Source: a virus
Length of the DNA: 28,055 nucleotides
Virus record (IMG/VR): IMGVR_UViG_3300035698_018320
Location: 1 to 28,055 of that record
Direction: 5' to 3' (one strand)
Part shown: piece by piece, positions 22,984-28,055 of the stretch
Layout: every line of letters starts with the position of its first letter
Numbering within the stretch: position 1 is the stretch's first letter
Program-made: the position numbers and the translations under genes
The notes under the pieces: model-generated
The model's database searches: none
The model's input: the letters and a program-made list of their open reading frames with translations, nothing else
What the model was told of the DNA's origin: nothing

Positions 22984-24057
22984 ATGTCTACTGATAAACT
23001 ACAAATAACCAAAGATACAAAGACTCGAATTATTGATAAAGTAATTCGAGTTCTTGTTCTTAATCATTCCAATCACGAGAAAAGACAAGTAATTAATTCT
23101 GATGAACGTTTAAATTTCGCATGTCCATACTGTGGTGATTCCACAACTAATACCAGAAAAAAACGAGGAAATATTTATTGGAATGATTTATATTTTCATT
23201 GTTATAATTGCTCTGCTCATGAATCTTTAGATAATTTCCTTGCTCATTATGAGGTTAACTTTGAAGGTGCAGAACGAGTAGATATTATAAATTATATCAA
23301 AGAAAATCATAATAACTATTCATTAGGTGAAGAACTTGATTTTTATCTTTTTGAAAAAGCAAATGAATTAGCATTAACATTTGATGAAATATCAGTAGGA
23401 TTTAATATCTATCCTATTAATTCTCTTACTTATAGAGCATATCCATATTTAAAAAGTAGATTACTTCATCATAAAACTGAATATTTTGCATATGATCCTA
23501 GACGTAAAGAACTTTATATTTTTAATCTTACTCCAGATAAAAAAATAATTGGATTTCAAACTAGATCATTAGATGGTGTTGGACCTAAATATAAAACATG
23601 GTCAATGACAAGAATATATGATCGTCTTAATAAACCATTAAATTTAGAACAAAAGGAAATTGATAACATAAATAAAATATCAATGTTATTTGGTATCTTA
23701 ACAGTAGATTTTAGTAGAGACTTTACAGTCTTTGAGGGACCTATTGATGCTATGTTTATGCAAAATACAATTGGTTTAACAGGAGTTAAGAAACAGATAT
23801 TAGATTTTAATGAAATACCAACAGTAAGATACTTCTTTGATAATGATAAAGAAGGCAAAAGTAGAATGATTGAAAAATTAAAAGAAGGCAATTATGTTTT
23901 TATGTGGGAGAAGTTTATAAAGGATTATAATATTCCACATCGTAAAATTAAAGATTTGAATGATCTAGTAGAATATGAATATAAAAATAGAATTGGCTGC
24001 TTGAAAGATGTGAATAAATATTTTACAAATAATCATTTAGATATAATTTTTATATGA
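22984..24057 (+). CDS. gp61-like DNA primase (357 aa)
   Basis: The N-terminal zinc ribbon is intact: C47-P-Y-C50 and C73-Y-N-C76. The toprim-like catalytic core shows F-E-G-P-I-D-A (E251) followed by Y-F-F-D-N-D-K-E-G (D286, D288), matching T4 gp61 (V-L-E-G-P-I-D-S and V-L-D-N-E-P). T4 gp61 is 342 residues, so the protein is full length. It makes RNA primers for lagging-strand synthesis in complex with the replicative helicase, which is not in this window. It follows the gp32 gene immediately, and its TGA overlaps the ATG of the next small gene (ATGA), indicating translational coupling. Confidence 0.92.
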   Translation: MSTDKLQITKDTKTRIIDKVIRVLVLNHSNHEKRQVINSDERLNFACPYCGDSTTNTRKKRGNIYWNDLYFHCYNCSAHESLDNFLAHYEVNFEGAERVDIINYIKENHNNYSLGEELDFYLFEKANELALTFDEISVGFNIYPINSLTYRAYPYLKSRLLHHKTEYFAYDPRRKELYIFNLTPDKKIIGFQTRSLDGVGPKYKTWSMTRIYDRLNKPLNLEQKEIDNINKISMLFGILTVDFSRDFTVFEGPIDAMFMQNTIGLTGVKKQILDFNEIPTVRYFFDNDKEGKSRMIEKLKEGNYVFMWEKFIKDYNIPHRKIKDLNDLVEYEYKNRIGCLKDVNKYFTNNHLDIIFI

Positions 24058-24284
24058 TAAAAAAATTCGAGGAATTCGTGAATGACAACTTAGATGAATT
24101 TAATAATGATTTAAACATTAGTAAAAAACGTTTAAGATTAATTATCAATTTTGAAAATATAAAAATTGATGAGGGAACTATATCTAATAATATCATATTA
24201 GACGAACCTAAAAAACAATTCAAACCTAAAGTAAAAATTAAAAAAAGAAAACATTTAACTAAATCAAATAAAGACATATTCTAA
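24054..24284 (+). CDS. Small basic protein between primase and UvsY (76 aa)
   Basis: Begins M-I-K-K-F-E-E-F-V-N-D-N-L-D-E-F and ends with a strongly basic Lys/Arg-rich tail (K-P-K-V-K-I-K-K-R-K-H), suggesting nucleic-acid or partner binding. The start overlaps the primase stop by four bases and its own stop shares one base with the next ATG (TAATG), so all are probably translated as a coupled set. The opposite-strand frame is equally long but is not supported by context. No family recognised. Confidence 0.55.
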   Translation: MIKKFEEFVNDNLDEFNNDLNISKKRLRLIINFENIKIDEGTISNNIILDEPKKQFKPKVKIKKRKHLTKSNKDIF

Positions 24285-24733
24285 TGGCATATGATGATAG
24301 CAAAATAAAGGAAGTTAATATTGAATTAGAAAACCGATTATTGTTAGATAGAAAATCGTGGGTTTCTAAAATTGATAAACTTATTCAGAAAATAAAAAAT
24401 ATGAATGAGTTAGGCGATTGCCAAGTACATATGTTATCGTATAGACAAATTCTTTTAGATAAAATCATTGAATTCAAAAGTATGATTTATAAAAGAAATG
24501 CTTCTTGGGAAAATTATTATAAAGCTAAGTATAGAAGTTATACTTTAGATTATGACATTAAATTAACAGGTGGCGAAAAACATCAATTTATAAAAGCTGA
24601 TCTTTCCTCACTTAGACATCAAATAGATATGTTACAATCTCATATTGATTTTTATCAAGATAGTATTAAAACATTAGATAATATGGCTTTTGCTATTAGA
24701 AATAGAATTAGATTAGATGATGAACAACAATAA
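24284..24733 (+). CDS. uvsY: UvsY-like recombination mediator (149 aa)
   Basis: The length (T4 UvsY 137), all-helical composition and the pattern around residues 85-145 (Y-D-I-K-L-T-G-G-E-K, then K-A-D-L-S-S-L-R-H-Q-I-D-M-L-Q...L-D-N-M-A-F-A-I-R-N-R-I) fit UvsY-type proteins, which load the UvsX recombinase onto gp32-covered ssDNA. The position directly before a UvsW-type helicase is the same as in T4 (uvsY, uvsW.1, uvsW). Sequence similarity in this family is low, so the call rests partly on synteny. Start and stop are each coupled to neighbours by one-base TAATG overlaps. Confidence 0.68.
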   Translation: MAYDDSKIKEVNIELENRLLLDRKSWVSKIDKLIQKIKNMNELGDCQVHMLSYRQILLDKIIEFKSMIYKRNASWENYYKAKYRSYTLDYDIKLTGGEKHQFIKADLSSLRHQIDMLQSHIDFYQDSIKTLDNMAFAIRNRIRLDDEQQ

Positions 24734-26090
24734 TGATACTATCCTTATCAGAAAATAAAAAGTTTTTAATAATCGATTCATGTACTGAACTTGAATACGA
24801 TCAATTAAAAAGTAGCCTCACTAAGAAAATTGAAGGGTGGCGGTTTCATCCCCTTGTGAAGAAAAAATTATGGGATGGGAACATTTCATTTATAAAAAGA
24901 AATAAAATTGCAGCAGGCTTATGGAAAGAAGTAATCGATATTTGTAAAGAATATGACTTTGAATTTAAGCTGAATAATATAACTCAATTATTTGACACTG
25001 ATATAAAAGAACCTGAATTTGTTGAGTGGGTTAATGACTTTTTTAAAACTTCACCTTATGATCCTAGAGATTACCAAATAGACGCAGCATTTAAAATACT
25101 TAAATATCGAAGATGTTTAGCGGAATTAGCAACATCTGCTGGTAAAACTCTTATATCATTTATGGTCATTGCATATATGATGGAACGATTACATTATAAA
25201 AAAATATTAATGATCGTACCTAATGTGAGTTTAGTTGTACAAGGTACTGGAGATTTTGAAGAATATAACAAAAGTAGATTACAATTAAAGATACAGCAAA
25301 TATATGCAGGTGTAAAAATAAGACTAGTTCAAATATTGTTATTGGAACATATCAATCTTTAGTTAAAAAGGATGAAGAATATTTCAAACAATTTGATGCT
25401 GTTTTTGTAGATGAAACTCACAAAGCAAAAAGTCAAAGTATTCAAACAATTATGGATAAGTGTTGGCATTGTGATTTTAGATTTGGATTATCTGGTACTA
25501 TTCCTAAACCTCGTACAGTTAATAGATTATCTCTTATGTCCGCAATGGGACCTTTAGTAACTCAAGTAAAAGCTGCAGATTTACAAGAACAAGGATATAT
25601 TGCAAAATGTAAAGTTTTACAAATTCATATGAATTATGCAACAGATAAACAAAAAACTGCATTCTATGAATTACAAAAAAATTATGATAGGCAAAAATTA
25701 TTTTCGCTTGAACAAAATTTTATCAATGATAATGAAAAGAGATTAAACTTTATTTGTCAAGTTATTAATAAATCAACCTCTAATTCATTAGTACTTTTTC
25801 ACAAAATTGCGTATGGTGAAAAAATATTTAAAAAGCTAAAGGCCATCACTAATAAGAAAGTTTATTATGTTGATGGCAGTGTTAGTGCTGATATAAGAGA
25901 AGACTATAAGAAAAAAATGGAAGATGCAGAAACACAAGAAGAATATATTATATTTGAGTTAGATAATTTTAAAGCAGCTGTACCAAAATATGTAAATATT
26001 AAATTAATAGATGGTTCATTTAAACATGCTGGTAATATATCTATTACTGATGATTTAGATGAAGATTTTTTAAAACAATATAAAGAATAA
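24733..26090 (+). CDS. uvsW: UvsW-like helicase, N-terminal part (uvsW-a), frame break and foreign tail
   Basis: The N-terminus has the UvsW-specific domain (G-W-R-F-H-P-L...L-W-D-G-N-I, compare G-Y-R-F-N-P...N-W-D-G-R-I in T4), then Walker A A-T-S-A-G-K-T (K138), DETH box at 25410-25421 and motif III S-G-T near 25491. UvsW is a superfamily-2 helicase that unwinds R-loops and branched DNA, helping switch from origin- to recombination-dependent replication. The frame changes by -1 in the A-run 25314-25318; one extra A gives G-V-K-N-K-T-S-S-N-I-V-I-G-T, as expected for the family. UvsW homology runs to about 25950 (D-G-S-V-S-A-D-I-R-E-D-Y-K-K-K-M-E-D), after which ~45 residues (from F-E-L-D-N-F to Q-Y-K-E) have no counterpart in UvsW. 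Motifs V-VI are in uvsW-b. Confidence 0.85.
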
Positions 26091-26125
26091 CTCTTTCTAC
26101 TGGAATATATATTAAAATAGGAATA

Positions 26126-27085
26126 ATGTTAAATTTTAAACAATTATTTATAGATAAGCATGGTTTACCGGATGATGAAAAGTTTCTCGACGAGTATATA
26201 GAATTAGTAACATGTTACAACGAATTTATTAATGATCAATATTTTGAACAACATCATATTTTACCAAGGGCATTTTTTCCTGAGTATGTTTCAGATAAAA
26301 GTAATATAGTTAAATTATTATACAAAGATCATATTATAGCACATCAGTTATTATTTAAGGCATATAATAATAGAACATACCAAAGACCATTAAATTGGAT
26401 GATAAATGAAGTTGATTATAAAACACATGAAAATATATCAAATGCAGCAAAAAATGGGTGGATAAAATTAAAAAAAAATAAAGAAAAATATAATAAATGG
26501 ATAAAGATTCGATCTAATTATATGAAATCTTTATCATCAGATGAACAACTTAGAAGATGTAATATATTTTGGGATAATATTACAGAAGAAGAATATAACG
26601 AATTTTGTAATAAAATGAAAGAAATTTGGACAGATGATGCTAGATTTATACAATCAAAAAAGTTAAAAGAGTATTATAAAGATCCTAAAAATAGGGAAAA
26701 AAAGTCAGCTGAAGCTATATTAATGTATAAAACGCGAACGGAAGAAGAACGCAATACATTTAAAATAAAAATGAATGAAGTCAATAAACGAAAGGATAAA
26801 AGAGATAAGGCAGGAAAAACTATTAAAGAAAAATGGAAAACTGATGAATTTAGAAATATAATGATGAATCGTAAATCTAAACCTGGCATAAAAATTAAGT
26901 TAGTTTTTCCATCTAAAAAAGAGGAAGTTTATAATAGTTTAAGCGAATTACACAAAAAAACTAATATCTCATTACATATAATAAGAAATTGTATTAATAA
27001 TAATAAACCAATACAATCTAAGAAAAAAATGTATCAATTATTTGTAGGTTGTATTATAAAAAAAATAAATAATGGCAAAAATTAA
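26126..27085 (+). CDS. HNH homing endonuclease inserted in uvsW (319 aa)
   Basis: The His-Me finger is visible at residues 41-75: E-Q-H43-H44-I-L-P-R, then N60-I-V-K-L and H69-I-I-A-H73. The middle is Lys-rich with repeated short helices (W-T-D-D-A-R-F, E-E-R-N-T-F-K, K-W-K-T-D-E-F-R), a DNA-contact region, and residues ~270-300 (S-L-S-E-L-H-K-K-T-N-I-S-L-H-I-I-R-N-C-I) look like a NUMOD1-type helix-turn-helix. It lies between the two halves of uvsW with only 35 bases of noncoding DNA before it, and its 3' end overlaps the uvsW-b start by 14 bases. There is no room for a group I intron, so it interrupts the gene as a free-standing element, as with other endonuclease-split genes of T4-like phages. 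Its frame extends upstream to 26084 and encodes a UvsW-like T-L-S-T-G-I-Y-I-K segment. Confidence 0.88.
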   Translation: MLNFKQLFIDKHGLPDDEKFLDEYIELVTCYNEFINDQYFEQHHILPRAFFPEYVSDKSNIVKLLYKDHIIAHQLLFKAYNNRTYQRPLNWMINEVDYKTHENISNAAKNGWIKLKKNKEKYNKWIKIRSNYMKSLSSDEQLRRCNIFWDNITEEEYNEFCNKMKEIWTDDARFIQSKKLKEYYKDPKNREKKSAEAILMYKTRTEEERNTFKIKMNEVNKRKDKRDKAGKTIKEKWKTDEFRNIMMNRKSKPGIKIKLVFPSKKEEVYNSLSELHKKTNISLHIIRNCINNNKPIQSKKKMYQLFVGCIIKKINNGKN

Positions 27086-27426
27086 TAATATTAAAAAAGA
27101 AATAAGAAATAAGGATGCTACAGTAGTTATTGTAGCATCCTATTGAGTATGGGACATTCTCAACCGGTATATCGATTAAAAACATCCATAATATATTTTT
27201 TACAGAATCATTTAAGTCTGAAGTAATTATTAGGCAGTCAATTGGTCGTGGTTTACGTAAACATATATCAAAAAATATTGTAAAAATTTATGATTTTATT
27301 GATGATTTACGTTATACAAAAAATGGTCATGAATCTTTAAATTATATTTATAGACATGGAATTGAAAGAAGAAAAATATATAAAGAAGAAAAATTTCCAT
27401 TTGAAGTACAAAATATAAATTTTTAA
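27072..27426 (+). CDS. uvsW: UvsW-like helicase, C-terminal part (uvsW-b), with 7-nt interruption
   Basis: The ATG at 27072 gives M-A-K-I-N-N-I-K-K-E-I-R-N-K-D-A-T-V-V-I-V-A-S-Y and then TGA at 27144. The downstream frame, shifted by +1, continues G-T-F-S-T-G-I-S-I-K-N-I-H-N from 27151 to the stop at 27424-27426. Dropping 27144-27150 yields V-A-S-Y-G-T-F-S-T-G, which matches T4 UvsW (V-A-S-Y-G-V-F-S-T-G-I-S-V-K-N). Motif VI Q-S-I-G-R-G-L-R-K begins at 27235, and the end (E-E-K-F-P-F...N-I-N-F) parallels the T4 C-terminus. This half supplies the second RecA-like domain's motifs V and VI, so helicase activity would need assembly with uvsW-a. Either recoding reads through the interruption or this copy is dead. 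Confidence 0.8.
27112..27141 (+). other. 11-bp perfect hairpin just upstream of the uvsW-b interruption
   Basis: AGGATGCTACA (27112-27122) pairs with TGTAGCATCCT (27131-27141) around the loop GTAGTTAT. The stem lies inside the codons for K-D-A-T-V-V-I-V-A-S and ends on the first base of the TAT codon preceding the premature TGA. A structured RNA at a recoding site is typical of bypass and frameshift signals, but the same bases also encode conserved residues, so the structure could be coincidental. Confidence 0.6.
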
Positions 27427-27481
27427 TTATAATATCTTGTGAAAGATAATGAATATATAAAAAAAGTAAAAAAAAGAAAGA

Positions 27482-28055
27482 ATGAATACTATTAAAAAGT
27501 TTTCAACAATATCTAATAACATTTCTGCTATATTAGAATCAAAAAACATAAGTGAAGAACAATTAACTGAACTTGTTAAAAAATTAGGATTCAATTCTAT
27601 TGAAGATGTTAAGAAGGAAAAAAACCTTTTAGCAAAACTTGAAGCTTTATTAAAGGAATTCCCTACTAAACAGGATGTATCTGAAGATGAGGCAGAAGAT
27701 ATTGAAGATGAAATTAAGAAAAAAGGTGAGCCTAAATCTATAGAAGATAAAGAAGGTGAAAAGGAAGAAGAGGGCGAAACTGGTACTGAATCTGAAGAAG
27801 ATGAAGTTGCTGAAGAAACTGAAGAAGAACCTGCAGCTGAAGAAGAACCTGCAGCTGAAGAAGAACCTGCAGCTGAAGAAGAACCTGCAGCTGAAGAAGA
27901 ACCAGAACCAGAGCCTGAAGAAAAATCAGCAAATAGGATTTTGGCATTTGATGAATTTATAAATCAAGCTGAAGAAGAAGCTGAAGAAGAACCTGCAGCT
28001 GAAGAAGAACCTGCAGCTGAAGAAGAAACAGAAGCTGAAGAAGAATTAGAAGAAC
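27482..28055 (+). CDS. Acidic protein with PAAEEE repeats (3' partial)
   Basis: The ATG at 27482 opens a frame that runs off the window (191 codons). Residues 1-60 are helical and charged (M-N-T-I-K-K-F-S-T-I-S-N-N-I...L-A-K-L-E-A-L-L-K-E-F). From ~65 on the protein is extremely acidic, with hexapeptide repeats P-A-A-E-E-E, an interruption reading S-A-N-R-I-L-A-F-D-E-F-I-N-Q, and more repeats. Highly acidic, Glu-rich proteins occur among phage prohead core/scaffold proteins and as disordered interaction tails, but no family is identifiable. A 55-base A-rich gap without clear promoter precedes it. Opposite-strand and other-frame ORFs here are artefacts of the repeat. Confidence 0.7.
   Translation, partial: MNTIKKFSTISNNISAILESKNISEEQLTELVKKLGFNSIEDVKKEKNLLAKLEALLKEFPTKQDVSEDEAEDIEDEIKKKGEPKSIEDKEGEKEEEGETGTESEEDEVAEETEEEPAAEEEPAAEEEPAAEEEPAAEEEPEPEPEEKSANRILAFDEFINQAEEEAEEEPAAEEEPAAEEETEAEEELEE
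27821..28036 (+). repeat. 18-bp coding tandem repeats (PAAEEE)
   Basis: Four perfect 18-bp copies lie at 27821-27892 and two more at 27983-28018, followed by a degenerate copy to 28036. The unit reads GAAGAAGAACCTGCAGCT. Copies are identical at the DNA level, including synonymous positions, which points to recent expansion by slippage or unequal recombination. Copy number is likely to vary between related phages and may be unreliable in an assembly. Confidence 0.9.

Follow-up and report, generated by a model that had tools for sequence, protein, structure and literature searches.

The uvsW gene of T4-related phages, where it is split by a homing endonuclease, probably carries a programmed forward recoding site, and in the form described here (type A) the ribosome would hop 7 nt, from a UAY codon over UGAG onto a second UAY. 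We place the probability of this reading, which rests on sequence comparison, at roughly 0.55. That the second half of the gene, uvsW-b, is recoded in one way or the other appears very probable, and the 7-nt hop is tentatively favoured over a +1 shift adding Glu-Tyr. The site lies in the window, by which we mean the whole analysed stretch of 28,055 nt (28 kb), an AT-rich record of a T4-related phage. It resembles the hop of T4 gene 60, in a new and very short form, and not a sequencing error, since the stop, the matched codons and the preceding hairpin are conserved in distant relatives.

Organization of the split uvsW locus

The features of the locus are collected in Table 1. The initial annotation had described a uvsW-b frame that reads V-A-S-Y (TAT) and then runs into TGA (27144-27146), and this was confirmed in the sequence: the stop is followed by G 27147, and TAT-GGG-ACA comes directly after TGAG. 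From TAT 27148 the frame resumes as YGTFSTGISIKNIHNIFF... and ends with TAA 27424-27426, which gives a complete UvsW C-terminal domain (PHROG 9690, E 5e-29). The gene between the halves was assigned to PHROG 12434 (HNH endonuclease, E 1e-18) and PHROG 655 (homing endonuclease, E 3e-16), in agreement with the earlier statement that an endonuclease splits uvsW just upstream of the site; its 3′ end is overlapped by the uvsW-b leader. To that statement we add a separate break in uvsW-a, a 1-nt deletion in comparison with relatives (at ~25321-25325) that shifts the frame in the window contig. This may be a lesion or an assembly error, independent of the recoding site, and because of it uvsW is possibly non-functional in the window genome. 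At 27482-28054 there is a gene with many EEPAAEEE repeats, truncated by the contig end.

Table 1. Positions of the features of the split uvsW locus in the window.
Feature	Position	Strand	Match or remark
uvsW-a, UvsW helicase N-terminal part	24733..25928	+	ResIII, UvsW_N, PHROG DNA helicase
Tail module, 53 aa, ETQEEYIIFELDNF...QYKE then stop, in place of the UvsW continuation at the split	25929..26090	+	
HNH-type homing endonuclease gene between the uvsW halves	26126..27085	+	
uvsW-b leader MAKINNIKKEIRNKDATVVIVASY, 24 codons, ATG 27072	27072..27143	+	Aligned leader in L165, L170
Hairpin, arms 27112-27124 and 27129-27141, loop 27125-27128	27112..27141	+	
Take-off codon TAT (Tyr)	27141..27143	+	
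TGAG, stop codon plus one base, separating the matched codons	27144..27147	+	Invariant though free in the scan
Landing codon TAT (Tyr)	27148..27150	+	
uvsW-b body, UvsW C-terminal domain, +1 frame	27151..27426	+	

Conservation of the junction and types of broken uvsW

We scanned IMG/VR with a pattern that left the four bases between two TAY codons unconstrained. The scan returned seven further contigs in three sequence groups, all with a split uvsW and all with exactly TGAG in the free gap. Both Tyr codons vary between TAT and TAC, TGAG is invariant across the seven contigs and the window, and the form of the junction seen in L165 is identical in five separate assemblies. When 0-30 nt were allowed after TAYTGA, genuine VASY-stop junctions were observed at gap 4 only; matches at other gaps proved to be ordinary uvsW genes with an out-of-frame TGA, or unrelated sequences, and matches L164, L167 and L171 were attributed to chance. 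Compared across relatives, the insert and both TAT codons form an identical TAY-TGAG-TAY junction in divergent split uvsW genes. A sequencing or assembly error at 27144-27150, which had initially been allowed for and which the 1-nt uvsW-a break in the same contig might suggest, is contradicted by this same junction in seven other contigs, and we consider it most improbable. A search of a literature library found no paper on uvsW recoding.

A second scan was keyed on the MKPT leader and was thereby blind to the sequence after the break. It recovered some 20 more C-halves, nearly all of them broken in the same helicase motif (motif V, the site of the break in uvsW-C) and always with a net change of +1; the exceptions with an intact frame were LIMEstone1 and L215. 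Type A, the window type, reads TAY-TGAG-TAY, type B reads TAT-TGAC-GGN, and type C consists of ACN-TTT-pyrimidine plus one extra base, with UUU-UAG in one group. A scan of a genome-contig collection with the type A and type C patterns gave no match. In every copy of types A and B, UGA lies immediately 3′ of the take-off codon. The UUU-Y slippery site is retained in all type C copies, and judged by its sequence type C is best read as a classic +1-slippery UUU-Y at which simple +1 slippage would occur. A strong Shine-Dalgarno-like GGAGG was noticed ~35-40 nt upstream of UUU-Y in type C leaders, e.g., in L209 and L219.

In close relatives of the window phage, uvsW is unsplit and unbroken. A tail module of about 50 residues, for which no Pfam or NCBIfam family match was found, closes every split UvsW N-half examined, and the split C-half opens with a short leader; the leaders of L165 and L170 also have 24 codons and can be aligned with that of the window. 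An equivalent split of uvsW occurs in cultured Dickeya phages, which have the HNH gene I-LimI, and in Vibrio phages, which lack an HNH gene. No C-half frame break at motif V was found in the records of LIMEstone1, phiDP10.3, K469 and D506.

Several other origins of these elements were considered and rejected. A group I intron ending in TGAG was dismissed, as no Rfam intron match was obtained at E up to 5 over 24000-28055 and the leader remains a coding sequence as far as the break. A split intein composed of tail and leader gave no Pfam, NCBIfam or PDB intein match, and the C-terminal Asn followed by Ser/Thr/Cys is missing at the junction. The UvsW tail resembles the tail of T4 gp39 by eye and in a single-sequence hhalign comparison (P 1e-4, with 2 of 2000 shuffles scoring as high); a common origin was not established, the alignment-to-alignment score being 16.6 vs. 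16.8 for the reversed control.

Hairpin preceding the take-off codon

The hairpin reported initially at 27112-27141 is real and ends on the take-off codon, but it folds as 13 bp and not as 11. It comprises 12 Watson-Crick pairs and one G-U pair closed by a 4-nt loop, and the first T of the take-off codon takes part in its last pair. The energy of this hairpin is −19.3 kcal/mol vs. a mean of −8.0 kcal/mol in shuffles (z −3.1, p 0.002), which used synonymous codons for the same peptide with codon frequencies estimated from the G+C content instead of measured codon usage. A stem of 10-13 bp with a 4-nt loop, ending on the first base of the take-off codon, was found in all seven distinct type A and B sequences, and these hairpins outperformed synonymous-codon shuffles with z from −2.2 to −4.5. 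By contrast, three split copies with an intact frame lack the hairpin (z above 0).

The hairpin is defined here by prediction and covariation. Among the window, L165 and L170, both sides were changed in 5 of 13 pairs, a number equalled in 2 of 500 shuffles. In the L163/type B group the covariation is weak: a single pair was changed on both sides, and 126 of 500 shuffles reached that number.

Selection on the downstream frame and access to it

Within types, the downstream pN/pS was 0.11-0.60, with dS mostly saturated. Such values at saturated synonymous divergence indicate that, while the break was retained, purifying selection acted on the downstream frame. In the tree of C-halves, types A and B each form one clade, and type C forms one clade apart from the nested intact L215. 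Support for the type A clade is moderate (88/78); as type A is probably one clade, TGAG may be a single retained event.

These data bear on whether the break is simply a scar of resistance to an endonuclease in a dying or dispensable gene, in which the cleavage site was destroyed and uvsW-C is not usefully made. The break does sit on a conserved motif, a plausible target of a homing endonuclease, the clustered changes that separate L215 from L212 (about 98% identical) fall exactly at the break site, and the window uvsW-a carries its own break. Nevertheless, the downstream frames are open and under the purifying selection described above, the hairpin has been conserved through changes on both sides of its pairs, and UUU-Y has not been lost from any type C copy. 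A second UvsW copy is also absent from the records searched: we found no second UvsW C-domain in the records of thirteen relatives (mostly fragments, one of 208 kb), and the sole UvsW C-domain of the 208-kb record is the recoded one. A scar of this kind is therefore improbable. The dead gene that the initial annotation had kept as an option is opposed in a similar manner by the conserved TGAG, the matched TAY codons, the hairpin covariation and the downstream selection.

Production of uvsW-C by internal initiation or re-initiation instead of recoding was also weighed, since the downstream frame of certain type C copies does contain an ATG or GTG. However, the downstream frame of the window contains zero ATG, GTG or TTG codons, which leaves recoding as the only ordinary way to reach its C-half, and none of these starts occurs in L170 before motif V. 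ATT is the only frequent candidate in types A and B, and the leader frame is conserved as protein up to the break. We regard initiation within the downstream frame as very improbable. In the window, the open +1 frame reaches back only 5 nt from the take-off codon, which confines the frame change to the A-S-Y codons.

Hop versus +1 frameshift

In the recoding that we prefer for type A, insertion of a homing endonuclease would have split uvsW, with uvsW-N gaining the tail and uvsW-C the leader, and most of uvsW-C would be reachable only by a forward, out-of-frame move of the ribosome at motif V. The ribosome would pause while UAY is occupied by peptidyl-tRNA(Tyr) and UGA stands in the A site. 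As long as the P site contains the take-off codon, the lower stem would be kept apart, and a 7-nt advance would let it close; the partly melted hairpin could re-zip behind the ribosome and pull the mRNA by about 7 nt. The tRNA would then re-pair on the second UAY and translation would resume at GGN, giving V-A-S-Y-G-T-F-S-T-G. We infer re-zipping of the hairpin as the possible motor by analogy with the model for T4 gene 60, in which the 5′ stem-loop acts as a motor (PMC5009743).

A 7-nt hop restores the exact motif, which has no insertion at this place in 22 distinct intact contexts. By codon-anticodon rules, tRNA-Tyr re-pairs at 3 of 3 positions after a move of +7 and poorly after a move of +1. 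The share of GAG among Glu codons in the type A lineages is 10% (window), 23%, 27%, and 18%, and a codon so rarely used for Glu is unlikely to be invariant from coding alone; a hop would account for the G after UGA. In type B there is no second TAY, and the best landing codon, GAC, matches Tyr at 2 of 3 positions.

The alternative is a programmed +1 frameshift at UAY-UGA, in which UGA would be slow in the A site, the hairpin would push, and the next codon would be taken one base downstream. The products would be V-A-S-Y-E-Y-G-T-F for type A and V-A-S-Y-D-G-T-F for type B. Every broken copy has a net change of +1, so a single +1 mechanism might account for all the types, and the type C relatives have UUU-pyrimidine, with the UUU-UAG group among them. 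Removal of three bases turns type A into type B, which would fit translation of the intervening bases in the +1 frame, and a hairpin 5′ of the shift site can stimulate +1 shifting (PMC5009743). The downstream ORF also lies in the +1 frame and is under selection. On the other hand, tRNA-Tyr is unable to re-pair on AUU or ACU: re-pairing of the P-site tRNA at +1 is possible at UUU-Y in type C and not from UAU to AUU in types A and B. A +1 shift would, moreover, add one or two residues within motif V, where intact relatives have none, there is no Shine-Dalgarno-like sequence three bases upstream, unlike in prfB, and GAG is invariant where GAA is the preferred codon. For types A and B we therefore think a +1 shift unlikely. 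Of the very short bypass first proposed, recoding as such is well supported by conservation, covariation and selection, whereas a hop is preferred to a +1 frameshift with some reserve, because the three types all give a net change of +1 and the UUU-Y of type C is simply a +1 site.

Link to the endonuclease and significance

The association with an endonuclease that was part of the initial proposal holds in that the gene is split, but the tie is loose: L165, L170 and L209 have no endonuclease gene between the halves and have kept the recoding. Across the family the halves are separated by an endonuclease, by a glycine-rich ORF or by nothing, which indicates that recoding outlives the endonuclease. 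A search for relatives of the window endonuclease found none. The glycine-rich ORF lies between the uvsW halves in L210 (8607-9422) and L223 (1663-2565), with no recognisable endonuclease there.

A protective role of the insert, also suggested at first, is hinted at by the comparison of L215 (intact) with L212 (broken). Their changes are clustered at leader ATG plus 55 to 75, and such a cluster at the motif V site suggests local allele replacement. The gap of T4 gene 60 is thought to protect the gene against an adjacent, newly arrived endonuclease (PMC5009743), and the insert in uvsW may protect its site from the endonuclease as well.

With a little less than even confidence, we extend the preferred reading to the whole family. 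In the endonuclease-split uvsW genes of T4-related phages, the broken frame would be rescued at a single helicase motif by three interchangeable devices of recoding, namely the 7-nt Tyr hop, a UAU-UGAC 4-nt step and the UUU-Y +1 slip; the window would hold the shortest known natural hairpin-driven hop, kept for endonuclease immunity or for regulation. Natural bypassing has been described for T4 gene 60 and for a small number of isolated cases, and the existence of shorter natural examples has been anticipated for a long time (PMC5009743). If true, a 7-nt hop with a conserved hairpin and related solutions would provide a comparative system for bypassing, in which hairpin-driven ribosome movement, the determinants of hop length and the role of homing endonucleases in driving the evolution of recoding could be tested. 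Recoded genes like the split uvsW are liable to be miscalled as frameshifted pseudogenes.

Comparison with known systems

In Aeromonas phage Aeh1, nrdA is split by mobE into halves with new tails, which reportedly mediate assembly; we know of no recoding in this gene. The uvsW gene of Dickeya phage LIMEstone1 (I-LimI) has the same split point, tail module, MKPT leader and HNH gene as the window, but its C-half is one intact frame; the split was described there as an intron (PMC3296691).

The +1 frameshifting of prfB (RF2) and of UUU-pyrimidine sites involves a net +1 change at a slow codon, as in the window family. It differs from the window in that UAY-UGA cannot re-pair at +1 and that no Shine-Dalgarno-like element is present at a 3-nt spacing. 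In synthetic stop-hops, matched codons flank a stop and 9 nt are decoded as one residue, compared with 10 nt in the window (PMC5009743). Those constructs are artificial and in frame, whereas the site in the window is natural and frame-changing and has a conserved hairpin.

Gene 60 of Aeromonas phage Aes012 is endonuclease-split as well and carries a predicted 17-nt bypass (GAC-GAC plus a stop), annotated by the depositors; gene, gap and codons differ from those of the window. Gene 60 homologues with T4-like non-coding gaps after DADVDG are present in Proteus PM2, Salmonella NP4 and Shewanella Thanatos-1 (L231, L233 and L234), where the gene 60 parts are annotated as separate genes; bypass is wider than T4.

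T4 gene 60 itself differs from the window in its host gene, in its gap of 50 nt vs. 7 nt (4 between the codons) and in its Gly codons and UAG vs. Tyr codons and UGA. Unlike T4, the window has no take-off hairpin in the gap, as there are only four bases between the codons. T4 has KKYK ~30 residues from the P site, while the 24-residue leader of the window contains the basic stretch IKKEIRNK and no KKYK. The analogy with T4 gene 60 drawn initially holds for the matched codons, the stop, the upstream stem-loop and the endonuclease-split gene: both T4 gene 60, part of a topoisomerase gene split by mobA, and the window have an HNH endonuclease adjoining the split gene, a stop after the take-off codon, a stem-loop upstream of it and a basic leader peptide (PMC5009743).
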